From the NCBI GenBank assembly GCA_964006375.1, contig OZ023262.1:194929907-194993906 (forward strand): a stretch of DNA of 64,000 nt. Reading direction: 5' to 3'. The DNA is from Tillus elongatus. Lineage: Eukaryota; Arthropoda; Insecta; Coleoptera; Cleridae. Within the stretch, counting starts at the first letter, position 1. Every line of letters starts with the position of its first letter. The translations under genes and the position numbers were made by a program. Under the pieces are notes generated by a model. That model saw only the letters and a list, made by a program, of their open reading frames with translations. It did no database searches and was not told where the DNA came from. Shown here piece by piece: positions 4,302 to 62,578 of the stretch.

Positions 4302-4952
4302 ATGTTGGTGTCACAGGGTGAAGGTCTTGTTAACACAACCATTAACAAATTACCTGTTGAGTTACACATCCCAGGCTATCAATTCTGTGATCCGGGTACT
4401 GAGCTTTAAGAACGTCTGGCTAAAGCTAATGAAGGTATCAATCCTTTAGATCGTGCTTGTCGAGAGCACGACATCGCTTACTCTCAACTAAAACAGTTAA
4501 GTGATAGGCATCGAGCTGACGAGGTGTTGGAAAACCGCGCTTGGGAGAGAGTTAAGTCGAAGGACGCAAGTTTTGGAGAAAAGTTAGCCGCTTGGGGCGT
4601 TACAAACAACATGAAAGTTAAACGAAAACTTGGTATGAGTCTTGATGTTAGCCACTCGAAACCAAAGAAGAAAGTGCCCTTTAAAAACATAATAAGTCTG
4701 ATTGGTGAAGTTATAAAAGACAGAAACTTTAGGCCAACAGAGAACGCTGTGTTTGATATAGCTCATGCAGTCGTTAGAAAAATTGGTGGGCGTAAGAATG
4801 TGCAGAAACCTCGAGTTATTCCAATACCTAAAAGCAGAGGCTTCCTTCCACTCTTACCTCTGATATTTGGTGGTTTATCTGCTCTTGGGGCTCTGTGTGG
4901 TGGCGCTGCTGGTATTGCTAAGGCAGTTAACGACCCTAAAGCAGCGAAATAA
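4302..4952 (+). pseudogene. PLA2-like virion protein pseudogene (virus-like module)
   Basis: The frame runs from an ATG at 4,302 to a TAA at 4,950, about 216 codons, with one in-frame TAA at 4,407-4,409. It codes for a phospholipase A2-like domain of the kind found in parvovirus VP1 unique regions and in some Polinton/adintovirus-like elements. Visible signs are a calcium-loop-like PGYQFCDPGTEL, in which the usual YCGPG glycine reads Asp, and the catalytic helix DRACREHDIAYS with its His-Asp pair. The middle is basic (KPKKKVP). Near the C-terminus a glycine- and leucine-rich hydrophobic segment (about residues 185-205) could touch membrane. A second open frame begins at Met 4,524 but lacks the PLA2 motif. 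The loop substitution and internal stop indicate a dead copy. The protein family is clear; the exact element type is inferred. Confidence 0.75.
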
Positions 4953-5000
4953 AAACTAGAGAAAGAAAAACGCCACAACAAAACAACGAAAGCCATCGCG

Positions 5001-5123
5001 ATGGGTAACAAGAGAGGCAGTGGTTTGAAATTTAAACCAAAATGCAAGAGACTCGGTAAAGGCCTGTATCTGAAGAAGCAGCGTAGCGGCCATGGGTTGT
5101 ATCTGCGAAAGCCAAAAAACTAA
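5001..5123 (+). CDS. 40-residue basic peptide with repeated GLYL motif
   Basis: A complete small frame runs from ATG 5,001 to TAA 5,121-5,123. It is strongly basic (Lys, Arg) and contains the motif GxGLYL twice, as GKGLYLKK and GHGLYLRK. It lies between the PLA2-like and protease-like frames and overlaps the upstream open extension of the protease frame in a different register. The two may once have been a single reading frame now separated by a one-base shift. A small basic peptide in this position could be a DNA-condensing core peptide, by analogy with adenovirus core peptides, but that function is inference. No ribosome-binding logic applies in a eukaryote. Confidence 0.5.
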   Translation: MGNKRGSGLKFKPKCKRLGKGLYLKKQRSGHGLYLRKPKN

Positions 5124-5530
5124 GATTTTTACCAGCAAGACCTCTAACAAATGTAGATCTTGTGAAATTCGCTGGTAAAATCAAAATCCCATATTTTATA
5201 AGTGTATACATGCGAGATGCTCTAGCCCACAAAGGGCCACGTAAAAATGAACGGTTCATCATGAATTTGCAAACAAACAAGGAGTCTGGCAGTCATTGGG
5301 CTGCAGTGAGGAAACGTGGTGAGATCGTTGAGTACTTTAACTCGTGTGGAAACTTGAAGCCACCTGTCGAGCTGCAACGTTACCCTAAAGACTGTTCTAT
5401 ATTGTATAATCATGATGTGTATCAAACATATACTACTTTTAATAGTGGTCACTTGTATTTAAAACTTTTAAATAAAAGACTCAAACACCAGTCCTCTGTG
5501 TTTCAGTCATGTCGTACACCTTCGTGTTGA
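5117..5530 (+). pseudogene. Adenain-like cysteine protease pseudogene
   Basis: This resembles the adenovirus-type maturation protease (C5 family, also found in Polintons), which cleaves capsid precursors. The frame is open from before 5,117 and has an internal Met at 5,162. Visible motifs in order are GSHWAAV with the catalytic His (about 5,290-5,310), an EYFNS block in the position of the acidic residue (about 5,328-5,342), and NSGHLYLKLL (about 5,440-5,470). In active family members a Cys precedes GHL; here it reads Ser, so this copy should be catalytically dead. The last about 20 residues after LKHQSS look like out-of-frame read-through into the next gene, whose ATG is at 5,509. Family assignment is good; inactivity is inferred from the missing nucleophile. 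Confidence 0.75.
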
Positions 5531-7749: not shown

Positions 7750-8460
7750 ATTCTGCAGTCGTCATGCTTTTAGATCTAAACCTAAAAATTTACATGAGTA
7801 TGAAGTGTCCAGAGTACTGTAACCATCAACACAAAATCTAAGTCTGTTATCTTTTAATTTTGTAAAATATAAAAGATTGTCTTTTTCAAGATTAAGACTC
7901 AAGTTGTTTGATGATGAATAATAGTGCATAATCACAAATGAATTTCAAAGGTTTGGCTGAAAATTTTCAATATTGTTTTTCCTGGATATTTGTGTTTTGT
8001 CACCTGCTTACATAACTGTTTTTTCTATTATACAATTTGTAAAATGATTTACGTAAATTATATATGGTAGTGGCCCAAGTACAGCTCCTTGTGGCACTCC
8101 TTTATTACTTTGCTTGTTGATTTTTTGATATGCGCCGATTATCTATCTTGTTTATTCTACTTCGAAGCCTGTTCTGTAGGTATGACCTAATCCATTTTAG
8201 GGGATTGTTTTTAATACCGTACCTTAGTAATTTTTCAGCCAAGATGCCATGGTCTATTAAGGCAAATGATATAGTTAAATCGACAAATGCTCCAATAATA
8301 CATTCTTCTTTATTTTACCCGTCTAGTACATCCGGAGGTATGCCACATATTCCCTTTATTGTGGTCGTGCTTTTCCTAAATCCATTTTGCTGATTTGCTA
8401 AAATAGCATTTTCTTCACAGTAATTCATTATCCATCCGTACATTTATATTTTATTTTTTT
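7750..8460 (-). pseudogene. Non-LTR retrotransposon RT fragment (CR1/Jockey-like)
   Basis: Read on the minus strand, 8,390 to 8,090 encodes a broken reverse transcriptase: NGFRKSTTT (motif 2 region), FVDLTISFALIDHGILAEKL in the position of motif A (the usual SKAFD Asp is lost), WIRSYLQNRLR, then in another frame GVPQGAVLGPLPYIIY, the hallmark motif B. Further down, 7,950-7,780 gives a FLGLDLK-type segment of the palm/thumb. At least three frame changes and several stops make it inactive. The fragment lacks the endonuclease and the catalytic YADD motif is not readable. Confidence 0.75.
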
Positions 8461-15504: not shown

Positions 15505-15712
15505 TCTGCGGAACTTGATCACCACACTGTTTTAAAAAACCTGACGATCGTACCACTAATCAAGTTAGCGTCATCAGAGGATGAATAATTAGAATTAATA
15601 TTAGATAACTATTAGAATTAATCATCTTATGATGACGCTTACTTGGTTAGTAAAACGATCGTCAGGTAATTTAAATGTGTTGTGGTGATTTGGGTTCTCC
15701 AAGTGTGCTTAT
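15505..15712. repeat. Palindromic pair of PLE ends
   Basis: Two copies of the outer PLE terminus face each other: 15,515-15,590 reads inward on the minus strand and 15,622-15,700 on the plus strand, each with the GATGACGC..CGATCGTCAGG hammerhead-like segment and the GTGATTTGGGTTCTCCAAG outer edge (clear only on the right). The whole can fold into a long hairpin with a roughly 35-base loop of TTAGAATTAATA-type sequence. It resembles a PLE reduced to its two inverted ends. Confidence 0.7.
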
Positions 15713-15841
15713 CAGTGCTCATCACAGGTTTCAATATTCACTTAGTAGTCTAACTTTCGTTAAAAGTTTTCTTATAAAAAGTTTACTAAAAATAATGACC
15801 AAGAAACGGAATTTAGTACACTTTATTTACAATTTTCGAAG

Positions 15842-16205
15842 AACCTCGGTGGTTCAGAAGTAAGAACGTGTGCCTTTGAACCGAAGGGTACTGGGTTCGA
15901 TCCCGGGGTACTCCTTTCACTTTTTCAGTACAAACTGTAAAATTAACATCAACCGAGGTTCTGGCATTGTATTTGAGCAAGTTGAATGTCTGCACGTTCC
16001 GCCCTTCGGAGGGGGCGTATAGCCGTCGGTCCCGTGTCCATGCGATGTTGGGCACGTTAAAGATCCCTACCCTCCTCACAGAAAGACAGGGGCTCGGCAA
16101 AATTTCCAGGATAGTGAGGTGAAACTGCTCCCTGGCGTCGGTGATTGGCTATAGTCGCGGAAATAGGCCGACGTTAAAGAAACAAAACACACACACACAC
16201 ACACA
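15842..16205 (+). mobile_element. tRNA-derived SINE, copy 1 (full length)
   Basis: The head is tRNA-like with a box A region (GGTTCAGAAGTAAGAACGTG) and a near-perfect box B (GGTTCGATCCC, 15,894-15,904), the RNA polymerase III promoter. A conserved body follows (TGGGCACGTTAAAGATCCC, GTGAGGTGAAACTGCTCCC, GGCCGACGTTAAAGAAAC) and the tail is (AC)n to 16,205. Copies of the same family lie at 26.65-26.99 kb (minus), 36.86-36.97 kb and 37.21-37.54 kb. It must depend on a LINE for retrotransposition; the partner is not identified. Confidence 0.85.
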
Positions 16206-17139
16206 TTTACAATTTTCGAACTGACAAATATTCACTCTTTCACTCAATACTAAATGACAAGAAAGATTGGGTAAAGCTATTATCGCGAATGAAAAAGTCT
16301 TTGAGAACGGTTCAATATTTACAATGATGCAACACCAATCCTTTATCAAAGCAAAAAAAAATTATCAGATGGAGGTCAAACACTAGGAGAAAATGGCACT
16401 TTCAGAGAAGACCGGCAACCTGCTAGTTGAATAGCAACAGAAGCCCTCTCTAAAATAGCTTTAATTATTAATATACACCTCTTTCACAGCTCGCATGAAG
16501 TTTCAAACATGGCACAACTCTCTCTAATATACTGCGTAGGAAGTGCGCGGCAAAAGCGTTGTATGTCATCCTATTTTCTATTACCCTATAATAGACTTTA
16601 GAATTATCACGCTAGATGTATTCACAACGACAATTAAAGCAAAGCTCTGCTATTCGTATACAGACTTCTCAAAATTACGATTAATAGTATCATTAGATAC
16701 GAATCGGCTCTCATAAATATAAGGGCTGAGACCCTTCCACTAGCAATTTCGTAGTCATTTATATTCATGTTTGGTAGCGCATTTGTAATAAATTGCGCCC
16801 ATTCTCGGTATGTGTATCCATTGGCTACCACCACTATCCACCTCAAAAACGTTGCAGCATAAATGCATCTTGCGAAGGCGAGTGTCACGGGACTTTGCGG
16901 TACTGTGATAAATGCATCTTGGAAACCGTTTCTGATATTACATATTACATTAAAAAAAGTCTACATGACGAGGCAACATCTGTTAAAAGGCCGGAAGTTC
17001 AAACTTACTGCATAACGCAATGAAACCAAAACCGATGTCCATCTATAATTATTCCTCACGACTAAAGGAACTTAATTTGCCGGCAATACATTTTTAGTGA
17101 ATTTTTATTTTTTTTAAATCACTAATAGTGACGTTTGTT
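16206..17139. other. AT-rich sequence, no gene recognised
   Basis: Short frames only. The 84-residue minus-strand frame at 16,634-16,888 shows no recognisable motif. Confidence 0.4.
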
Positions 17140-17265
17140 AGTATGTTGTCACGGCAGCTCCAACTAACAGTGTGTTAAAAAATAGAGAATGTATACAATC
17201 AACTAACAATTTAGTAAATTGTCAACTCTGACCCATTTCTACCATCATATAGAGACAAAGTATGT
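17140..17265 (-). repeat. Inverted partial retrozyme unit
   Basis: Reverse complement of the unit segment ACATACTTTG..GACAACATACT, with about ten differences from copy 2. It forms an inverted junction with the first direct unit at about 17,266-17,272. Confidence 0.8.
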
Positions 17266-17391
17266 AACACGCGACAACATACTACTTGGTTCCGCAATGA
17301 GGTGGCGGCACGTGCTTCGTGTCTTATATTTCACTTAGTGTTGGAAGGCTGGCTACCATCGCCGTATTACTTTAGAGGTGTATTTTTGCTG

Positions 17392-17452
17392 CAATTAGTA
17401 TGCTGTACTGACGAGCTCTAATTAGAGCAAAACCGGTCTACGATTCTAATTG
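17392..17452 (+). ncRNA. Hammerhead ribozyme copy 1 (core mutation)
   Basis: Same layout as copy 2, with stem I CAATTAG/CTAATTG preserved and stem II intact (GCTCT AATT AGAGC). The base after stem II, invariant G12, reads A (AGAGCAAAACC). G12 acts as general base in hammerheads, so this copy is probably inactive or very slow. Confidence 0.75.
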
Positions 17453-17710
17453 TGGTGAGAATGCACCTAGCCTTACATACTTTGTCCCTATATTAGGGTA
17501 GAAATGGGCCAGGAATGACAATTTACTAAATTGTTAGTTGGTTGTATACAGTCTCTATTTTTTAACACTCTGTGTTATTTGAAGCTGCCGTGACAACATA
17601 CTACTTGGTTCCCCAACGAGGTGACGACACGTGCTTCTTGTCTTATATCTCACTTACTGTTGGATGGCTGGCTACCATAGCTGTATTACTTTATAAGTGT
17701 ATTTTCTCTG

Positions 17711-17771
17711 CAATTAGTATGCTGTACTGACGAGCTCTAATTAGAGCGAAACCGGTCTACGGTTCTAATTG
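17711..17771 (+). ncRNA. Hammerhead ribozyme copy 2 (intact core, type I)
   Basis: All core elements are present: CTGACGA at 17,727-17,733; stem II GCTCT/AGAGC with an AATT loop, 17,734-17,747; GAAA at 17,748-17,751. Helix III is minimal, made by palindromic ACCGGT (17,751-17,756) without a loop. Site residue C is 17,757, so cleavage is expected between 17,757 and 17,758. Helix I has an inner part GTA/TAC, an internal loop TATGCT/GGTT and an outer part CAATTAG/CTAATTG, seven perfect pairs. The internal loop could give the helix I-II tertiary contact. A loopless helix III usually means cleavage as a dimer, which tandem transcripts favour. Structure is derived by hand; activity is untested. Confidence 0.85.
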
Positions 17772-18029
17772 TGGTGAGAATGCATCTAGCCTTACATACT
17801 TTGTCCCTACATTAGGGTAGAAATGGGCCAGGAATGACAATTTACTAAATTGTTCGTTGGTTGTATACAGTCTCTATTTTTTAACACTCTGTGTTATTTG
17901 GAGCTGCCGTGACAATATACTACTTGGTTCCGCATCGAGGTGGCGGCACGTGCTTCGTGTCTTATATCTCACTTAGTGTTGGAAGGTTGGCTACCATAGC
18001 TGTATTACTTTATAGGTGTATTTTCGCTG

Positions 18030-18748
18030 CAATTAGTATACTTCACGCCAGACAAAAAGCCTCGATGTTCAGCTCGAAGCTGTTCCCACTTCTAAGTGGA
18101 AATTTCAAATTGTCCATGAACAATAAATTGCTCATGTACAAAGTCGTCATCCGGCCAGCCTTGACCTATGCATCCCCTGCATGGGCCACCGCGGCCGCAA
18201 CACACATAAAGGCCCTTTAAATCATCCAGAATAAAATTCTGAGAATGGTTACCACAGCGCCATGGTTTGTCAGAAACAGTCAGATTCATTCTGATCTGGA
18301 AATGCCTTTGATACTTGAGTTTACGACTCAACTATCCACAACTCAGTTCGCAAAAGCCGCTTCTCACCCAAATGCTATTCTCCGTAGTGCCATCGACTAC
18401 GATGAGAAACTTCCATATAAGCATAAGCGTCCAAAGCTTATACTTACCCTCTAAAGCCCCCGCGGCAAAATCAGAATGTAAACATTCAAACACAAAAGCC
18501 ATTGTGTGTATTCTTTCCGACGGAGGTATGGATTAAGGTCCGGTACTCACAGGGAGGGAGTTTTAGTGAGTAGGTGTACTAAGAGTACGAGTCTCACAGT
18601 ACTTCTCACAGTACCACGGCACTACGGTGTCGTGAATGAGGCCTGTATGAGGCATCTCTCCCTCCTCCCCCCTCCCGCCCCTCTTAAAAAAATGTATGCC
18701 GTACTGACGAGCCCATATTAGAGCGAAACCGGTCTACGGTTCTAATTG
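18030..18748 (+). ncRNA. Hammerhead ribozyme copy 3, split by LINE insertion
   Basis: The 5' strand of helix I (CAATTAG) is at 18,030-18,036. The rest (CTGACGA at 18,704-18,710, GAAA at 18,725-18,728, GTC at 18,732-18,734, CTAATTG at 18,742-18,748) lies beyond a 658-bp LINE fragment. Stem II is weakened (GCCCATATTAGAGC). Inactive as it stands. Confidence 0.75.
18037..18694 (+). mobile_element. 5'-truncated Jockey-like LINE fragment
   Basis: It encodes the C-terminal part of a Jockey-type reverse transcriptase: FSSKLFPLLSGNFKLSMNNK, LLMYKVVIRPALTYASPAWA, then after a stop QNKILRMVTTAPWFVRNSQI and DLEMPLILEF. A 3' untranslated stretch follows, then an A-rich tail (TTAAAAAAA) ending at about 18,692. 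The flanking GTAT on both sides (AGTAT before, TGTAT after) may be a short target duplication. The insert interrupts the third retrozyme unit exactly between TTAGTAT and GCCGTACTG, so it is younger than the array. Confidence 0.85.
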
Positions 18749-18780
18749 TGGTGGGAATGCATCTAGCATTATAGACGTAG

Positions 18781-18940
18781 AGATTATTTCCCTGGCTTCA
18801 CAAATGTTTGTTTTCTTTCTGTAACCGGTTTAGCTGTCCGACAGCACCATCGGAAATCAGAAAATTAAATTTATCTATACGAATTCATGACAACCACAAA
18901 TAAACATCCGTTAAGATTGGAACCTGTGTTGAGCACTGAT
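18781..18940. other. Spacer without recognised features
   Basis: Short stretch between the retrozyme-like array and the PLE; nothing recognised. Confidence 0.4.
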
Positions 18941-19219
18941 AAGTACACTTGGAGAACCCAAATAACCACAAAACATTTTAAAAGACCTGATGGTCGTTTC
19001 ACTAACCAAGCTGGCGTCATCAGAGGATGAAAAATTCTAACTACTTTAAAAACTAACCTTATATACCGGATCTTAGGTAGAGAGATCGAACCGATATGGG
19101 AAACTAGTCGCAGGCAAATTCCACAGTGTATTGTATTTTTATCGCCGGACGAGGTCTTTGCACTGTCCCTACTAACTAATCTAAAAGGTGTCCATCTCTA
19201 ATAATTTTGGGAAGGTTCA
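18941..19219 (-). repeat. PLE left inverted terminal repeat
   Basis: Partner of 20,637-20,911. Carries on its minus strand a hammerhead-like motif (18,986-19,026). Confidence 0.85.
18986..19026 (-). ncRNA. PLE hammerhead-like motif, minus strand
   Basis: Minus strand: helix I CCT/AGG, core CTGATGA, one extra C, stem II strands around a TTG loop, GAAA, then a helix III ACGA/CCAT (degraded from ACGA/TCGT), then C and AGG. The catalytic GAAA is intact here, unlike the right-hand copy, but helix III has a mismatch. The extra nucleotide after CTGATGA departs from the standard hammerhead; small PLE-linked variants are known, but activity is uncertain. Confidence 0.6.
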
Positions 19220-19259
19220 AAGACTAAATTAACATTTCACAAATTCACTTGAATTTATA

Positions 19260-20189: not shown

Positions 20190-20401
20190 TGTCGGGAGTT
20201 TATGAAATAGGTTGTAAATAATGTAATCTTAAGTACGTCGGACAAACAAAAAGATCGATTGGAATTAGATTCAAAGAACACTTAGCCCAATTACGTTACG
20301 GTACTATAGATAGATCTTCCGTCGCCCGATATATTTGGGATAATAATCATCACGTTAATAAAGCTAATCTGAAATTAATAAAAAATGTTAGACAACCAGG
20401 C

Positions 20402-20459
<58 letters not shown>

Positions 20460-20620: not shown

Positions 20621-20636
20621 TAGTCGTTGAACCTTT

Positions 20637-20911
20637 CCAAAATTATTAGAGATGGACACCTTTTAGATAACTTAGCAGGCACAGTGCAAAGACCTATTCC
20701 GGCGATAAAAATACAATACACTGTGAAATTTGCCTGCGACTAGTTTCCCATATCAGTTCGGTCTCTTTACCTAAGATCCGGTATATAGGGTAATGTTAGT
20801 TTTTAAAATAGTTAGAATTTTTCATCCTCTGATGACGCTAACTTGGTTAGTGATACGATCGTCAGGTCTTTTAAAATGTGTTGGGGTGATTTGGCTTCTC
20901 CAAGTGTACTT
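20637..20911 (+). repeat. PLE right inverted terminal repeat
   Basis: Partner of 18,941-19,219; carries the plus-strand hammerhead-like motif at 20,826-20,866. Confidence 0.85.
20826..20866 (+). ncRNA. PLE hammerhead-like motif, plus strand
   Basis: Helix I CCT/AGG (20,826-20,828 and 20,864-20,866); core CTGATGA; one unpaired C; stem II GCTAAC/GTTAGT with a TTG loop; then GATA in place of GAAA; loopless helix III ACGA/TCGT; C at 20,863 as cleavage residue. The A14-to-U change in the core should abolish or strongly reduce cleavage. Confidence 0.6.
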
Positions 20912-22390
20912 AAACGTCCGTTGCTACATTACGATGTTTTGATCAAATAATTCTTAAAAAAATAAAAATGACTAGTGACGTATTTAAAATGTCTACGTGA
21001 TGTATGTCAATATTTAGCATGAAACTGTAACGCTAATAGCTAACAACAGTTACAAAAATCAAATAAATAAACAATAATATGTAGTAATAAGGCAGATTCT
21101 TACAACAAAAATATCGAGAAACATCAAATCATTGCCTAATTACAACTTTTAGAAATATAGTTAGACGTATTTTGTTTGATATGTTTAATTAGAAGAAGAA
21201 TTTCCAAGAAAGGGGAATCTATTAAACCTGTTTGCCTATTTAAGACAAGGTCACTATTGTCGTGTATGTGCTTTTCAATTTCTAAAGCTTTAAAAAAGTC
21301 AAGTTTACGTTTGTCATTACAAAAATGCAGTGGCTCTATGGGGTGATGATACCTAACATAGACCACAGTAAACAACTGCATACAATCACTATTCAAAGAT
21401 AAAATAGTTATCCAGATTTCCTGCGTTAAGGTGGAGCTGCCGCAGAAGTATAGTGTAGTAAGTGTATAACTGAATTACGTAGAAAAAATTGCGAAAAAAG
21501 CCGCAGAAAATCGACCAAAGGTGTGCTCTTTTCCCAAGACAACTCCCCTGCTCACAACTCGCTGATTGCACTGCAAAAGAACTGATTAGAGAGGTTTTCA
21601 ATTAATTGACTACCCGTCCTACTTCCTGTATTTAACCAATGTCACATATAGTACGAGGCCGCAGTGCTCTCACGTCACGGGCTGTGACGTCACCTTAAAG
21701 AGGCAACAAACTTTTATTCGTGGTATGATAGACGCCACCCTCATCTGCTAATCTTAATCTTGTCTGAAAGTTGCTAGTCACTAAATTACACAGCTGATAC
21801 ACTTAGATTTGTGTGCACTTTTGCGTAGAAATTAAAAATTCAAGTTGATTACATACATTTTACTTCTTCAAAGTAAAAAATAAGTTAGTGCATAAGTTGG
21901 AGTTAATTTATGCGTAAACTTGAGTGATTAAGTACTAATCTAGGCCAAATCAAGTAAATAAACAATAGGGTGCATTATAATTTGGGGTGTTGTAGATTCT
22001 ACGTTCTTCAAGAGAGGACTGTCAGTTTGGCGAGATATTTAATACACGTCATTGTGGCCCTGTAGGTTATTAATTTAGCTAAAATTTATCGTGTTATTTA
22101 ACAAATTAGATTAGTACACATTGCTGTTGTATTAAAAGACTATCAGCACTAGCCTTCGCAAAATGAATATAATATTGTGGTCGGGGGGGATGGGGGTGAC
22201 GGGAATAAAATATGTTATTGAACATTGTTGCGTTGTTTAACTATAACCAGTAAATACTTCCGTTGCTATTTTAAATTTTTATGAAATAAATGTAGCAAAA
22301 TAAGCACACTGGACCGTAAATGCATCAGAAAATATCCATTGCAATCACTCTTCGATGTGTGTTTATTATTATTATTATTATTTATTTAAA
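20912..22390. other. AT-rich sequence, one unassigned minus-strand frame
   Basis: A minus-strand 86-residue frame at 21,136-21,396 (KLDFFKALEIEKHIHDNSDL, then FLEILLLIKHIKQ) is reminiscent of the segment after the GIY-YIG domain in PLE-type proteins, but I cannot confirm this. The rest is unassigned. (ATT)n occurs at 22,366-22,386. Confidence 0.35.
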
Positions 22391-26000: not shown

Positions 26001-26645
26001 AAATTCGGTTATACATTAAATGTCAACGTTTTTCTCATGTGGTTTTTGTTTTAAAATTTCGTTTTGCGTTACACGTTACACGACAGAGCTGAGGCCTTGT
26101 ACCATAGGTGGTATTGATTTAACACCATAAGACTATTATTTATTTCCAGAGCTCAAGAAACGCTTGGATGGTAAACGATTCTCAACAAACGACGAACTCA
26201 TATGTGCCGATGAGAAATAGTTCAAATACCAAGATAGATATTTTTAAACGGTTTATAGTTGCTTTATGAACGTTCTGCTCACATATGTAGGTCTTAGATG
26301 CAAGGTGGCAACACGGCCATTTCCTAAACACGCAGCCTACAGCTTTCCATGTTGTTGTTGGTCCTGATGGAAGGGAGGACAATAACATTTAGAGTTTTCA
26401 ATTTTATTTCATAGAGGAGTTCATCTTGGGTGAATAAAATTTCTTTTTATAAAACGATTACGTTTTCTACTGTAGGCCAAGTATTTTTCAATACCTTCTC
26501 GTATATATTAAAATGTTATTAACCTAAATTATTATGCAAAAGTTATGTACTAAGTTAATGTATAGAGTTATTAATTCATTAGTTTTATTTTTATTACTCA
26601 CGAGAATCTCAGTTTTATTAATCGGAACACATACTTTTTTGCACT
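26001..26645. other. AT-rich sequence, no gene recognised
   Basis: Nothing supported; short frames only. Confidence 0.4.
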
Positions 26646-26647
26646 TT

Positions 26648-26992
26648 AACGTCTGTCTATTTCCGCGACTATTGCCAAATCTTGACGCGAGGCAGCAGTA
26701 TAACCTCACTATCCTGGACATTTTGCCGAACCCCTGCCGTTCTGTAAGGAGGGTAGGGATGTTTAACGATCCCAACATCGCATAGACACGTGACCGGCCG
26801 CTCTACGCGCCCTCCGAAGGAAGCAACGTGCAAACATTCAACTTGCTCAAATACAACGCCACAACCTCGGTTGATATTAATTTCTACAGTATGTACTGAA
26901 AAGTGAAAGGGAAATCCTGGGAGTCGAACCCAGCCATACCACTTGGTCCAGAGGCATATATTCTTACTCCTGGACCACCGAGGCTCTGGAAC
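26648..26992 (-). mobile_element. tRNA-derived SINE, copy 2 (minus strand)
   Basis: Read on the minus strand: tRNA-like head with box A region and box B (GGGTTCGACTCCC near 26,920-26,933), then the same body as copy 1 (GTTGGGATCGTTAAACATCC, AGTGAGGTTATACTGCTGCC), ending near 26,650 without the (AC)n tail. Confidence 0.85.
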
Positions 26993-36770: not shown

Positions 36771-36858
36771 GACGTATAGGCTGCACTTCTGGCTCCTCTA
36801 ACCCTTCCTTCAGCTGATTTAGTTACGCCATCCTTAGGCGAAAAATATTAATACAAAG

Positions 36859-36965
36859 AGCCTCAGTGGTTAAGTGGTAAGAACGTGCGCCTCTAAACCG
36901 AAGGGTACTGGGTTCGATCCTTCCCCTTTCACTTTTTTTAGTACATAATGTAACATTAACAGCAA
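36859..36965 (+). mobile_element. tRNA-derived SINE, head only
   Basis: tRNA-like head with box A region and box B (GGTTCGATCCTT), then about 40 bp of body; the rest is missing. Confidence 0.8.
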
Positions 36966-37210
36966 TCATTGTTAATAGGAAAAGAACTTATTATATACCT
37001 AAATATAAATGACAAATGTCGATAGACCACCACTAACATCAATACACTTACATATACGCCAGTGACGAGAATGTGTAATTTTAAATAGTGGCTTTTAGGA
37101 TTTTGGACCTCCAAAATTAAGGAGCACAAAATTGTAATTGACAGCGCAATGATAGTTAGACATTTGGTTAAAACCAAGTTTCTAAAATGACACCTTTTAC
37201 AACCACAAGA

Positions 37211-37545
37211 GTAGAGCCACGGTAGTTCAGTGGTAAGGACATGTATCTCTGAACTGAGGGGTACAAGGGTTTCCCTTCTACTTTTTCGATACATCCTGTA
37301 AAATTAACATCAACCGAAGTTGTGGCTTTGTATTTGAGCAAGATAAATGTCTGCACGTTCCGGGGCGTAAAGCCGTCGGTTCCGTGTCCATCAATGTTGG
37401 GCTCGTTTAAGATCCCAACCCTACTTACAGAAGGGCGGGGGTTCGGTAAAATTTACAGGCTAGTGAGGTGAAACTACTCCCTGGTGTCACTCATGGGCCA
37501 TAGTCGCGATATATCGACGTTAAAGAAACAAAGCACTGTGTTTCT
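37211..37545 (+). mobile_element. tRNA-derived SINE, copy 4
   Basis: The head is TAGTTCAGTGGTAAGGACAT; box B is damaged (AGGGTTTCCC). The body matches copy 1 through to CGACGTTAAAGAAACAAAGC. It abuts a retrozyme-like fragment. Confidence 0.8.
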
Positions 37546-37665
37546 AATGATGGTCAAAATCATGTAGCCTTACATACGTTGTTTCTATACTAGGATAAAA
37601 ATAACAGGGCAGGCAATTTAAACATTGTTAATTGTATGTTCAGTCTTTACGTATATAATTGTCTT
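37546..37665 (+). repeat. Retrozyme-like unit fragment
   Basis: TTTCTAATGATGGTCAAAAT then CATGTAGCCTTACATACGTT and the GGCAATTTAAACATTGTTAA block correspond to the part of the 319-bp unit downstream of the ribozyme. The ribozyme core itself is absent. Confidence 0.6.
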
Positions 37666-38099
37666 TATTAGAGCTATTGGAAAATAACAGTAATAGCCAA
37701 GCCATACATCGTATATTAATAGAACAAAATCCCAATTCAACACCCAAGGTCTGTGACCAATTGGAAAACATAATAGAAGTAACAATAGAATAATAAATTA
37801 ACCAGAGCATTCATGGATGGGTGAAAAACCAAAACCGAATCTGCAAACGTCCACCTGCAGAGATCACCTTCAAAACAGCTAACTCGTGTGGAAACCACCT
37901 TAAAGATCCACGCCCACCAGGGGCTATAAACGGAGGTATCCAAACAACGTACGAGCATTCCTACATCTCATTTCTACATTACTACTATCTTAGTCTTCAG
38001 TTAGATTTATGTCATTTTTTAAGTTCTCTTAAAGTTAATAGGGAAGAAAGTTACCTCGCGATAACATAGTAACTAGTTAGGCACTGGGCTGGCAATTCA
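37666..38099. other. Unassigned sequence
   Basis: Open frames of 73 and 82 residues occur on the two strands; neither is recognised. Confidence 0.35.
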
Positions 38100-38375
38100 G
38101 AGCTTTCAATGTTATTCGAGGCTGGCTACATTTAGCCGATTTAGTTTGGATGTGTCTTGTGTATCACTAGTATAGCACACTAGCGAGCTCCCATGAGAGC
38201 GAAACCGGTATGTGTTTCTACTGATGGTCAAAATGCATCTAGCCTTAGATATATTATTATATCTATTAAGGGAGAAAGTACCAGGACCGACAATTTAAAA
38301 ATCGTAGGTAAGTTGTATGAATTATTTATCTATAGCACTTTGTAATTATTAAGGCTGTCGACACAACATAGTCCC
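38100..38375 (+). repeat. Decayed retrozyme-like unit with broken hammerhead
   Basis: Aligns with the 319-bp unit from GAGGCTGGCTACATTTAGCC to GGCTGTCGACACAACATAG. The hammerhead region at 38,180-38,210 keeps stem II (GCTC/GAGC), GAAA and the ACCGGT helix III. However, the core CTGACGA reads CTAGCGA and the cleavage base reads A. Diverged and inactive. Confidence 0.65.
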
Positions 38376-40525: not shown

Positions 40526-40762
40526 TGTTGTAATAAACGCTGGTGAGGCCCAGCTCAAGCAATAAGAATTTCTCAGGAACTGCATTAGTGATATTGCAAA
40601 AATTCATATCTTCTAAACGGATAGACTGAATTTCAAAAACCAAAAAATTATAATATTGGGAATCAAAAGCTCTTTTCAACGAGCTATCAGACGACCTCTA
40701 TACCTATTAGAAAAAATTGGAGGGATGACGCCCCCGTTGAGGAGGGTAATGTATAGGCTGTA

Positions 40763-41295
40763 CTTTTTTCGTCAAAAGTTGTCCCCCTGACAAGCCAACT
40801 TGACGTGTTTTAGGTTTTTGACAATCTTTTCCTGGCAGTTATGTCTCCCAACTCATTGTCAATGGGGCCATCTGTATAACATTGTTCAAGTTACCTATGC
40901 TAAAGGTATCCCGTTCTGATACTTTTACCAGAGGTCATCTCTCAGATTCACCATTTTTCTTTTACAGAAATTGCGATTAGTACTGTTATACTAAATTATA
41001 TTTTTCACAAAAATTCACCAACCTACTTTTTTCGTCAAAAGTTGTCCCCCTGACAAGCCAACTTGACGTGTTTTAGGTTTTTGACAATCTTTTCCTGGCA
41101 GTTATGTCTCCCAACTCATTGTCAATGGGGCCATCTGTATAACATTGTTCAAGTTACCTATGCTAAAGGTATCCCGTTCTGATACTTTTACCAGAGGTCA
41201 TCTTTCAGATTCACCATTTTTCTTTTACAGAAATTGCGATTAGTACTGTTATACTAAATTATATTTTTCACAAAAATTCACCCACCTATTTTTTT
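40763..41295 (+). repeat. 271-bp tandem duplication, near identical
   Basis: Units 40,763-41,033 and 41,034 to about 41,295 differ at only a few positions (CTCTCAG/CTTTCAG, ACCAACC/ACCCACC). No open frame is shared. A recent duplication. Confidence 0.95.
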
Positions 41296-45010: not shown

Positions 45011-46804
45011 ATTCGAAGTCATAGTCAAAAATATAGGGCTGATGTTGAGCTCTGGTGACTGGTATTGTAGCATCTATTCTCTCTCTGAGTCTTAGTCCAC
45101 TCAGACCTCCAGGTCTCTTAAGTCTGGGCGTGCATTCTGACAAATCTGGGTCCCGCTAAGGCCTTCATTTACCTTCTGCATGGATTATCAAGCTGGTTAC
45201 AAGATTTCATCTAGGGCTTGACTTTGCCCATTTGGTTCATTGGAAGTGTTTCGGAAACAAGTGACTCCTGTTCAACTTAATGAATGTGTCAAAAATTTAT
45301 TTTTAAAGTTTAAGAGAAAATTCAGGTCAAGATCAGTTATATTCTTTCACATTCTTAAAAAGTTACGTTGCTGTTAGGGTTACTTTAACTTGAATGGGTT
45401 TTTTTAGCTGTAACTGTGAACTATAAATTTATTTAATTAGTCACGCATTTTAAGTATAAATATTGTTGTTCATCCAAGGTTGCTGTCTTTTAAATATTTT
45501 GGATTATTAATAAATTCTTGAAACCTCAAAGTAAATAATAGTATCTTTTCAGAGGTTCAGAATAAATTAAGGAGCATTACGCTCAGATCTTAAACTTATC
45601 TTGCAACAGGACACGCAATTCTAGCAATCTATGCAGATCTATCTGGCCAGAAAGAGTAATTAAGCTGGTATTAATTACATTTAAGAGCCTAATTTTTATT
45701 TACTGATAATATTCTCTCGTTTTGTTGTATTTTTATTCGCTAATGGTTGAATGATTTAAATTTTACATAGCACTGCATACAACACCAAACCATTTATTAT
45801 TGTTTAATAAAAACTGGTAATTGTGTTCTACTTCTGCTCTTTAACTTAACCACAATTTTCTTAATAAGTTCCCACAAGTGCAACAGCTTTATAAAACTTG
45901 ATATTGTCTAGATTTCTTTATTAACGAACATCTATGAAGCACAGAGTCTTGAACTGAAGGCCTTACAAATATGAGATTTTGGTCAATACTAACCAAATAG
46001 TAAGTATTAGTTTGACTATCTTTATGAACTGACGCGGTAACTTCCTAATTTTTTCTTTCTTGAATTACTAAATTATTCCTAACTTTGCCGAGTTATTGAC
46101 ATACATTTGTTTTGTTTCTGTCGGGTTATTATTATTATTATTATTATTATTATTTATTGGTAAAAATTACACATAATGTTAATACAATAAGTCTTATGCG
46201 ACTTGGGGTGTATCATATAACATAATTTAGAAGGTTGAATCCTAAATAGTTTGACAGTCCGACACCAAATTCAATAAACTTCAGATTTTGACGTACCAAA
46301 CTTAAATTTTTTTTCTCTTCTATTTCGCACCTTCTAACACTTCAACCATCACCTTCATTTACCATACATCTCTGCTATTCCATAATGTCTTTTTAACTGA
46401 TATTCTTTCCAAGCAACCCATATTTTCACTAACATTTTTAAATTTGTAGGAGATAAAAATTACTTTAGTTTGACAAATGTCATTCCATCTAAATCATTAA
46501 TAAATAATTTAAATTTGAAGCTTATATTAATTAATGTTGCTGTATTTGCTTTTAAATAAATAGGGTAGGATCTACAGAAAACTAATACTAGGAAAACGGG
46601 CTCAACTTACGAAGGTTACTTAAAGTTATTTGTAATTTATGGACAAAATTATAACAAGAACTTGCGATACATTTGCTGATCGATATCCCCATAATCAGAA
46701 ACCATCACCACATGCTGTATGACGCATCCTAGAGAATGTTAAATATCTTGGTATTACGAAAGGAGGTATCTAAAGAAGAAAACGTATTGTTGATGATAGT
46801 CTAA
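45011..46804. other. AT-rich sequence with (TTA)n at 46,122-46,153
   Basis: No gene recognised in 1.8 kb; only a trinucleotide run. Confidence 0.45.
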
Positions 46805-47367
46805 GATCCGGCTGCAAAATTAGTACATTAATAATGTAGATTATCAAGATTTAATTTTTAAGTATTTTTACAACTAGGAGAAGTCACTTTTCATCAGGTG
46901 CCAATTAAAAATTACCCGCCAGTATTATTAATTAAAATATAATTAAATTACTTTTAGAGAAACATTTCGTTAACATCTTACGGAAATAAAACCTGCACAA
47001 CTTCACAACAGTGTATTTAAAATATCTGAAACGTCATAGTTGCTGCTGATTGCTTAACCGCGCTACCTCTACGCAGCCAGGTGTAAACAGGTATAATTTT
47101 ATTAAAACTTTTCGTTCTTAACGTACACTCATTTCATTTATACCACATTAAAGCTCATTTTTTTCTGTAGTTAATGATATAAAGGTGCCTATATAAAAAA
47201 AAACCGCAAATCAAAGTTTCCTACCCTAAAAGATGCTAGGTATGAAAAATAAAGTGACAGAGAGTGATCGCGCGACGCTACTTGTTAGACAAGGATGCTC
47301 AATGCCAGCTGAACGTATTTTTTGAGCTATTGCGCATGCTCCGATAAGCATCTGAGTCCAGTAATTT

Positions 47368-48180
<813 letters not shown>

Positions 48181-48404
48181 AGAGTTTATCGTTAATAGTA
48201 TATAATTTTTGTAGAATTTTCGTAAAAAAAATCAATAAAGCTCAATATATCTGTTATTATACCAGATATGAAAAAAAAATGTATATATTAATTATAGGGT
48301 GTCTTAAACTACATCTGAAAAAATTATTTCTACAATCACAGGGTGGCCCATAAGTCGTTGGTGATACAAATTTTCTTTTTTTTTAATCAAACACGCCTTA
48401 TGTT

Positions 48405-48775
48405 ATTGCATTTTTGCATTTTCCATCGAAATATAATGCATGTTTGTAAGTACAAAAATTCTGGACGCAGTAAGTGCGTTGTGGTAGCGAATTTTGATTA
48501 AATGCTTAATATTTGAATAGCTCAATTTGCTATTAACCTATAAGGTTGACCAAAAAACAAGTTGTTTCGGGAACACTTTAAGTTTACTTTCGGAATTTTT
48601 TTTAAACATTTTCAAACAATAAAGTTATTTTGATGAGACATGGCACAATTTCTATATAGATTATACTGGTAACCAAATTTATGCCTGCTTTCTTAAAAAA
48701 AACACACATTATTGCTATTAAAAAATAGTTTTATGAAAATTCACTACCATAACGCACTTGCTGCGTCCCGAGATT
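48405..48775 (+). mobile_element. MITE-like element, copy 2
   Basis: Inverted ends GGACGCAGTAAGTGCGTT (48,463) and AACGCACTTGCTGCGTCC (to 48,767). The interior matches copy 1 at 13.6-13.98 kb. A mariner-type terminus motif (GGGTGGCCCATAAGTCG) occurs just upstream at 48,342. Confidence 0.7.
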
Positions 48776-49351
48776 TTTATTACTACTTAGATCGTTGGTT
48801 GAGAACCCTATTTATCGGAGCATGCGCAATAGCTCAAAAAATACGTTCAGCTGGCATTGAGCATCCTTGTCTAACAAGTAGCTTCGCGCGATCACTCTCT
48901 GTCACTTTATTTTTCATACCTAGCATCTTTTAGGGTAGGAAACTTTGATTTGCGGTTTTTTTTATATAGGCACCTTTATATCATTAACTACAGAAAAAAA
49001 TGAGCTTTAATGTGGTATAAATGAAATGAGTGTACGTTAAGAACGAAATGTTTTAATAAAATTATACCTGTTTACACCTGGCTGCGTAGAGGTAGCGGTT
49101 AAGCAATCAGCAGCAACTATGACGTTTCAGATATTTTAAATACACTGTTGTGAAGTTGTGCAGGTTTTATTTCCGTAAGATGTTAACGAAATGTTTCTCT
49201 AAAAGTAAATTAATTATATTTTAATTAATAATACTGGCGGGTAATTTTTAATTGGCACCTGATGAAAAGTGACTTCTCCTAGTTGTAAAAATACTTAAAA
49301 ATTAAATCTTGATAATCTACATTATTAATGTACTAATTTAGCAGCCGGATC

Positions 49352-50390
49352 CCGTACTATGACAAAAATATAGAAATACTGATTCTAGGGTACTTTCGAG
49401 CTTTTACAATGATGTCCCTAAGACAGGCTGTTCTAGGATTTACCCATTTTAGATACGTATGGTATAACAGTTTAAAGAAACCGATTTCATTAAAAGACAA
49501 AGATTTTGCAAATCTATTTTGACGAGGTACCAGGAGAATAATTCGCTTCTAGATAACACTATATGGATAGGTGAATTGAAGTTAACTAAAAATGGTCTTC
49601 TAAATCGTCATAAATAAATTTCTGGAGTGATTCAAATCCATACAACACTCGGGAACGCAATTTCCAAAACAGTTCGCAGTTTAATGTTTACTGCGCCGTT
49701 ATAAATAAAGAAGTGGCCGCCTTGTCAAGACAATTTAAATAGTAACTAAATATCTTTGGTATAATTTATGTACCCACAGTTTTAGTGTGTCTTAGGTGAG
49801 GGATATCTAAATATTCTGCATAATTTCAATAGAAATTATCTGGATAATTTACTGTTGTGTAGGTTTCAACTTCTCTCCAGGGCTACTGTGATTTCGGTAA
49901 TAATGTTTAATGATTAAACACATTCCAATAAAAATAAAACAGCTCTACCTCCTTTCGTATTTAACTTCTCCAGATATAAAATTATAAGAAAGCTTATAAA
50001 TTTCTGCATTCACCAAATTCAAAACATACAGGGTGTTGCATTTGAAAAAGAAGTATTTTTAAATTTCGCAAAAAATAAATACCATGCACATTAAAAAATA
50101 AAATGTCATTATTAACGTGCATGAACGCAATCTACACTAAAAAAACCATCATTATGACAAAACCCGATATTAATATCTCAAAACGTGCCAATGAATATAA
50201 ACGTCTCAAGTAGACCACCTTCTTTACATTTTACTTCATGTAGTTGGAGAAAGATTGAAAATAAACTAAAATAAATCTCTAGTTTGACTACAGGAGAAAA
50301 ATTATAACACTCTCAAAGTAATCTTTCTGGTACTTCATGAACTTTTTGTGCCATTATAAGATAAACGTTGTCTGTAATATTTAGTAGATT
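49352..50390. other. AT-rich sequence, no gene recognised
   Basis: Nothing supported; a terminus-like ACAGGGTGTTGCATTTGAAA occurs at about 50,028. Confidence 0.4.
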
Positions 50391-60087: not shown

Positions 60088-60850
60088 GATGTATGTAAAA
60101 AATAGTAGTACCTACCTAGATCTCAAAGTACTACTATATTACTTTAAGGTAGGTATATTTCTTCTTAAAATAATTTTTGTTTCACTTTCGTAATACCTAC
60201 CAGTGGTGTCTGTATAGAGTTCACAGGTAATACATACAATATTTTAAATACCGTGAACGTGAAGAATGGGAAGCTTAATATTTATACATAATGAAACGTC
60301 GTTCTAGATTGCTTTTAAACAAATTGAATCACTTTCATTAAATTTTTTATTTATTAGTATACATTTGCATGATAAAATTTGGCGCTTTTGGATGCAAGCT
60401 TTGTCCCGGTATTACAAAAGAAATGGTCCAAGGCTGACATTTTACTAGTTGGTTGTGCATTGTACACAGCTCTATCTTTAAAATTTTGTGTAAGCTAGAG
60501 AGATGTCTTGACAACATCCTGGTCCTGCACCGAGATGGCGTCCCTGTCGTAACTCTCACAATCCCTGACCTTTTGCAATAACTTCCATTGTCTAGATTTT
60601 TATCTACGATTTATTTAAATGGCATAGCAGTACAGATAACGTCATCTGTCTTTGTCCAACATTGTAGATATTGCATTACAGAATCTGAAGTGATGTCGAG
60701 GATTATTTCATTATAAATTTCGAATAACTATATTTTCCTTTGATCAAACGACTAGAAAATTTGTACACAACCACGTCCGTCTCTGTTCTTTTAAGTTGTA
60801 AACTATTGTTTCAGTCACTTAGAAAATTTGAGTGATATTGCGTTTTAAAG
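60088..60850. other. AT-rich sequence, no gene recognised
   Basis: Nothing supported. Confidence 0.4.

Positions 60851-61004: not shown

Positions 61005-62578
<1,574 letters not shown>

Follow-up and report, generated by a model that had tools for sequence, protein, structure and literature searches.

Organisation of the array in the window

The window, which is the whole 64-kb stretch of beetle DNA that was analysed, contains an array of a 319-bp unit. Three direct copies of the unit start at 17270, 17589, and 17908 (spacing 319 + 319), and TRF found the same period of 319 with 93% matches in the array, in agreement with the exact 319-bp spacing of three units that had been described in the initial annotation. 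Copies 1 and 2 are 93.7% identical over 319 aligned bases without gaps (BLASTN), and the GC content of the unit is 41%. The features of the array are listed below, where phase denotes the position counted from the predicted cut.

17139..17267, minus strand: partial unit in inverted orientation that heads the array, running from unit position 331 to 201 and from phase 164 to 34 (inverted repeats I1 and I3; BLASTN 87.8%).
17273..17591, plus strand: unit copy 1, 319 bp, with a hammerhead at 17392-17452 in which A replaces G12 at 17429.
17592..17910, plus strand: unit copy 2, 319 bp (TRF, alignment, and BLASTN).
17711..17771, plus strand: complete type I hammerhead of copy 2 with a loopless helix III and a predicted cut at 17757/17758 (strict descriptor and sub-threshold Rfam HH9).
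17911..18042, plus strand: left part of unit copy 3, unit positions 1-132 (BLASTN 90.9%).
18043..18693, plus strand: LINE-like insert of 651 bp that splits copy 3 and is foreign to the element (BLASTN and translation).
18694..18776, plus strand: right part of unit copy 3, with an intact core, two broken stem II pairs, and the right end of the array at phase 36-41.

The G12 change in copy 1, the split third unit, the inverted partial unit, and three diverged relatives elsewhere in the window are additions to what had been annotated. The right end of the array lies at the site that is usual for the family and the left end at phase 164 is atypical. No significant target duplication was found in the flanks of this array. 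Unit positions 126-132 are present on both sides of the insert and were read as a target duplication; a free comparison of the flanks of the 651-bp insert was no better than shuffles. The translation of the insert resembles the RT end of elements that we take to be of the Jockey type, with no support from Pfam. The reading of the array as an exact trimer (three units within 8 nt) was dropped; other arrays are not whole multiples of the unit.

Hammerhead of the unit

The hammerhead of copy 2 consists of the core CTGACGA, stem II GCTCT-AATT-AGAGC, GAAA, and ACCGGT, with C17 at 17757. Helix I consists of CAATTAG/CTAATTG (7 bp) and CTGTA/TACGG (5 bp, one U-G). The core is intact and helix III is shortened and self-complementary, with no loop. 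With the strict descriptor, this motif is the only hit in the window, both strands included, and 300 first-order Markov sequences gave 0 sites, by which a chance motif was ruled out. The complete type I hammerhead with a 7-bp match in helix I that had been proposed for copy 2 is hence confirmed, and the loopless ACCGGT helix III, from which cleavage as a dimer had been suggested, would be too short to act alone. In the comparison with hammerhead models, which had also been proposed, no match in the window reached the Rfam gathering threshold, and Hammerhead_HH9 was found below it (28.5 bits vs 52). The remaining Rfam matches in the window, all below gathering, were taken as chance. A model built from four copies recovered those four and nothing else in the window below E 2. 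As only 1/3 of the hammerheads in the array is intact, this array is predicted to be a poor source of circles.

The optimum predicted fold of the monomer (-18.2) has core bases paired, and the hammerhead is at -12.9. A double hammerhead is possible in the two-strand fold at -34.7 with the best fold at -48.4, and the circle fold has a z of -1.1. The hammerhead is not the predicted best fold of the monomer, the dimer, or the circle. Among the four diverged sequences of the window, 5/20 pairs changed on both sides, all five in the copy at 38 kb, and slid partners gave at most 2. In recent copies (150 genome copies, 112 distinct), covariation was found in 0/20 pairs and pairing among the 112 distinct hammerheads was no more than in shuffles; these copies are recent, and the helix III pairs are kept in 101 to 109 of the 112 rows. 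Conservation is 41/61 in the hammerhead vs 136/193 outside it and 25/31 in the core. A hammerhead fold conserved by descent is plausible and is unproven by covariation.

Genome-wide distribution of the family

The genome that was searched comprises 1,719,054,363 bases (1.72 Gb) in 30 contigs. For the hammerhead core pattern CTGANGAGN{6,16}CGAAACCGGTC, 18,055 exact matches were counted (8987 forward, 9068 reverse), and the reversed core pattern, used as a control on the whole genome, has 0 and 0. The case considered in the initial annotation, that only the copies of the window exist, is thereby excluded. The search with the unit, in which 40 of 7110 first-look candidates were scored, gave 83 matches. 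The genome matches belong mostly to a younger 307-bp subfamily with a unit GC of 42%. Among the first 100 places listed, most core matches have A at position 7, the tandem spacing is 306 or 307 bp in 23/33 pairs, and neighbour pairs at most 1500 bp apart comprise 33 tandem, 10 head-to-head, and 1 tail-to-tail. By our own count these 100 places form 54 clusters, from which we estimate about 9,700 loci genome-wide if their clustering holds. In the two arrays tested for coding capacity, no frame exceeds 60 aa (L070) or 54 aa (L015) and no ORF for RT and GIY-YIG was found. This and the unit size and GC agree with the small, non-coding tandem units of the retrozyme kind that had been described earlier.

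Four patterns gave 0, 5, 0, and 0 stretches in viral contigs. One of the five loci has a complete hammerhead by the descriptor and four do not. This locus (L001, on an IMG/VR contig, minus strand, 8347-8389) was identified using the core pattern and has a closed helix III; it is probably unrelated to the beetle family. The survey of genome contigs and phages beside the viral contigs gave 0 pattern matches and none, respectively. For PLE RT in viral contigs, 0 of 17 pattern matches were confirmed.

Array layout, ends, and target duplications

The sample comprised the 39 best-scoring loci and, in order of position, the first 20 clusters. Once L047 and all chains shorter than 150 nt had been left out, 57 loci with 63 arrays were available. 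The arrays are head-to-head in 38/63, one-way in 25/63, and tail-to-tail in 0/63. Their outer 3' ends exhibit two fixed sites: 47/101 are near phase ~38 (30-50), 38/101 are near phase ~200-230 (195-235), and 16/101 are elsewhere. The subset chosen by position alone exhibits both sites (17/34 near, 11/34 far, and 6/34 elsewhere), so the end clusters are not explained by the score-based choice of loci. CTTA words adjoin both sites, occurring in the 307-bp unit at phases 33 and 202 only and in the 319-bp unit at phases 33, 203, and 214.

Of the head-to-head arrays, 25/38 combine a near end with a far end (one of each), with 1 near-near array, 1 far-far array, and 11 arrays that have an end elsewhere. 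The one-of-each count of 25/27 has a binomial probability of 2.8e-6 at even odds. Flank words of at least 8 bp are held in common by 16/25 one-of-each arrays vs 15/600 mismatched-locus pairs, with the longest at 14 bp, and these 16 arrays thus have target duplications of 8-14 bp. The 5' ends of the one-way arrays (n = 25) are scattered, with 0 at phase 30-50 and 5 at phase 195-235. They are not enriched at the cut (0/25 within 4 nt), which argues that the ends of the arrays are not set by a cut linear RNA. Of the 76 head-to-head junction ends, one, that of L018, is at most 4 nt away from the cut.

Uniformity of young arrays

The units within arrays were compared using 74 full units from 46 loci, where 15 arrays have at least 2 full units. 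The three youngest arrays differ internally by 0 (L015 and L063) and 0.1% (L070, with 10 full units in both arms), and the nearest other sampled loci of L015, L063, and L070 are 4.7, 1.3, and 0.7% away, respectively. The private alleles common to all units of the array number 7, 7, and 5 in the same order. The units are more alike inside the array than to the nearest sampled locus in 7/15 arrays and not so in 8/15. This uniformity fits the copying of one unit RNA followed by decay, and recombination could mimic it.

Diverged copies in the window

The three diverged relatives of the unit in the window are as follows.

37537..37675, plus strand: diverged partial copy that immediately follows the 3' tail of a SINE and whose first base corresponds to the one just past the predicted cut 38210/38211 of its neighbour (BLASTN).
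38119..38370, plus strand: diverged copy with a hammerhead-like motif at 38164-38224 and a broken core CTAGCGA (BLASTN 68-69%).
60399..60540, plus strand: diverged partial copy that starts at phase 41 (BLASTN about 70%).

The copies at 38 and 60 kb stop at phases 161 and 163, and an end near phase 161-164 is perhaps an older end site. The SINE/unit fusion at 37208-37675 has no duplication at its joint. The copy at 37537 as a sign of in vivo cleavage was not upheld and is kept as an observation; of the junction ends elsewhere, 1/76 is near the cut. BLASTN against the array extends this copy 17 nt further upstream with 10/17 identical, and the same 21 bases match a SINE tail at 20/21. Two further loci that seemed to start at the cut are artefacts of the reference start and begin at 312 and 302 on a rotated reference. 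The SINE-like family is found at 15839-16190, 26644-26987, 36856-36965, and 37208-37536, with a tRNA-like head by eye, and a perfect target duplication of 16 bp flanks the copy at 15839.

Neighbouring Penelope-like element

The array is adjoined by a Penelope-like element (PLE) with inverted repeats at 18940-19226 and 20621-20912 that are 90% identical (BLASTN). This PLE is decayed (RVT_1 E 1.6e-4, below the Pfam cut-off; GIY-YIG E 0.02), and its best RT relatives are from the longhorn beetle Aromia moschata. A second hammerhead-like word, CTGATGACGCNNNCTTGGTTAGT, has 4 matches where chance gives 0, at 15555-15577, 15629-15651, 19001-19023, and 20829-20851. These sites lie in the neighbouring PLE, at its inverted ends, and in a short relative. 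The word is followed by the self-complementary ACGATCGT, and the strict descriptor failed on it. The frame at 61517-61888 resembles the endonuclease end of a PLE (46% over 35 aa to 20222-20404), with no Pfam match to GIY-YIG.

Comparison with known systems

The beetle family resembles the metazoan non-LTR retrozymes (PMC7229834) in having non-coding tandem units (150-450 bp in retrozymes) with low GC, a type I hammerhead, and thousands of copies. It differs from them in its loopless helix III, its mostly head-to-head arrays, and its two fixed 3' end sites, and the circles would here be predicted from the sequence. The statement that metazoan retrozymes carry exactly such hammerheads did not hold: the invertebrate ones are described as mostly having a stable helix III and being cut as monomers, and the loopless minimal form is that of PLEs (PMC7229834, PMC7761336).

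The family resembles the PLEs and their pLTRs (PMC3846280, PMC11167929) in its minimal hammerhead, its target duplications, and the inverted unit that lies next to direct ones. In rotifer Penelopes, direct pLTRs are accompanied by an inverted one, one of the inverted pLTRs bears a tail, and the target duplications measure 8-10 bp (PMC3846280). However, the two beetle arrays tested have no RT/endonuclease ORF, and the family has two 3' sites about 170-180 nt apart, whereas PLEs have a tail of roughly 31 bp. The minimal PLE hammerheads (PMC7761336, PMC6466107) share a very short self-complementary helix III and tandem motifs with the beetle motif, which unlike them lies inside an ORF-less unit of retrozyme size. 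These minimal hammerheads cut as dimers (Lunse and others 2017, via PMC7761336 and PMC6466107), and their role in PLEs has been called unknown (PMC7761336). The pDo500 satellite of Dolichopoda cave crickets (PMC2837043) is also a tandem hammerhead repeat of an insect, likened here by description, for which single and double hammerhead cleavage has been proposed.

PLEs have been proposed as the mobilisers of retrozymes on account of the type I hammerheads and tandem copies of both and their co-occurrence (PMC7229834). A PLE enzyme has been described that cuts both strands and extends them, and as a caution, cleavage was unnecessary for insertion by this enzyme in vitro (PMC11167929). No description of retrozymes arrayed head-to-head with their ends at two fixed sites was recognised among the titles and abstract starts of open-licence PMC papers, a set outside which the primary papers on PLE hammerheads lie, and the words "inverted" and "orientation" are absent from PMC7229834. 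Retrozymes and PLE hammerheads are already published, and the head-to-head layout with two end sites may be new.

Proposed mode of insertion

The family is probably an ORF-less retroelement family of the retrozyme type with a minimal hammerhead of the PLE type, and as part of this explanation the array of the window would be one old insertion. The features read from the DNA itself are the unit, the hammerhead, the family size, the head-to-head layout, the two end sites, the target duplications, and the near-identical young units; for the transcription, the cleavage as a dimer, the circles, and the helper that would connect them, we infer the following course. Multimeric transcripts would be cut by neighbouring hammerheads paired through the self-complementary ACCGGT, and the resulting unit-length RNAs would probably be closed into circles. 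A PLE-type reverse transcriptase/endonuclease acting in trans would open the target, and the two target DNA ends would prime on the unit RNA, each near a different fixed site (~38 and ~200-230 nt past the cut, close to the only CTTA words of the unit). The cDNAs would be extended around the repeating template over variable lengths and would then fuse head-to-head, flanked by short target duplications. Among the sequences analysed, no autonomous PLE with such ends was found.

The fixed 3' ends, the variable 5' ends, the target duplications, and the head-to-head centre suggest that reverse transcription was primed at both sides of a break in the target. The one-of-each rule suggests a single RNA as the template of both ends. 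The template would be an uncut multimer or a closed circle, since units run unbroken through the cut, and the circle is preferred because the young arrays are uniform and because of the published retrozyme cycle (PMC7229834). The kinship with PLEs is argued from the loopless helix III, the inverted unit, the target duplications, the one-sided tail of rotifer Penelopes, and the PLE enzyme that acts on both strands.

The units could instead be remnants of the pLTRs of a regular autonomous PLE, the sampled arrays lacking its ORF, with no independent non-autonomous element. The head-to-head inverted units, the fixed 3' ends, and the minimal hammerhead are all PLE traits and PLE fragments are present in the window (RVT_1 E 1.6e-4), but we regard such an origin as unlikely given the 18,055 motifs, the two arrays tested with no long frame, and the terminal repeats of the neighbouring PLE that do not match the unit in BLASTN. 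A canonical retrozyme moved by LINE or other non-PLE machinery, where the likeness to PLEs is convergence, would suit the size, GC, and tandem layout, and LINE-like and SINE sequences are present in the window. The loopless helix III, the two-sided head-to-head insertion, and the two 3' end sites without a poly-A-like tail make it quite improbable.

The dispersal of the arrays, their fixed ends, and their target duplications (16/25) speak against a simple satellite, or a product of recombination, in which the motif is vestigial and there is no RNA-based mobility. Two of the three hammerheads in the window array are damaged and recombination can homogenise arrays, as such a satellite would have it, and we still consider it very improbable. 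The ORF-less retroelement family inserted by priming from both target ends is thus the preferred reading.

It is further conceivable, as a tentative and still doubtful step, that the arrays directly record a twin-primed reverse transcription that rolled on a single RNA circle made by the ribozyme, with the copies fused head-to-head. Each end of the target break would use a different CTTA site of the circle, which would give the one-of-each rule, and both copies would run round the same circle, which would give near-identical units in both arms. If true, twin-primed copying of a circle would tie retrozymes to the PLE machinery mechanistically. Which machinery moves the retrozymes of animals, and whether their template is a circle, are the questions that this proposal addresses (PMC7229834). 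The fixed ends are an unusually clear trace of the mode of insertion, and the ~18,000 motifs, two fixed start sites, target duplications, and uniform young arrays provide countable predictions and a defined RNA for a PLE enzyme.

Other elements in the window

Among the 120 of 1485 matches listed for BEL/Pao relatives, 31/36 rows that name a species are from genera that we take to be beetles. A tandem dimer of 263 bp at 40761-41295 has copies that are 99% identical and is unrelated to the unit by BLASTN. The frame at 4410-5530 has a phospholipase A2-like domain (PF08398, E 1.4e-6) and adjoins a frame with no Pfam match; by impression, this region is the remains of a DNA-virus-like element. Long inverted repeats at 46796-49360 (98-99%; 266, 152, and 142 nt) belong to a young-looking inverted-repeat element.
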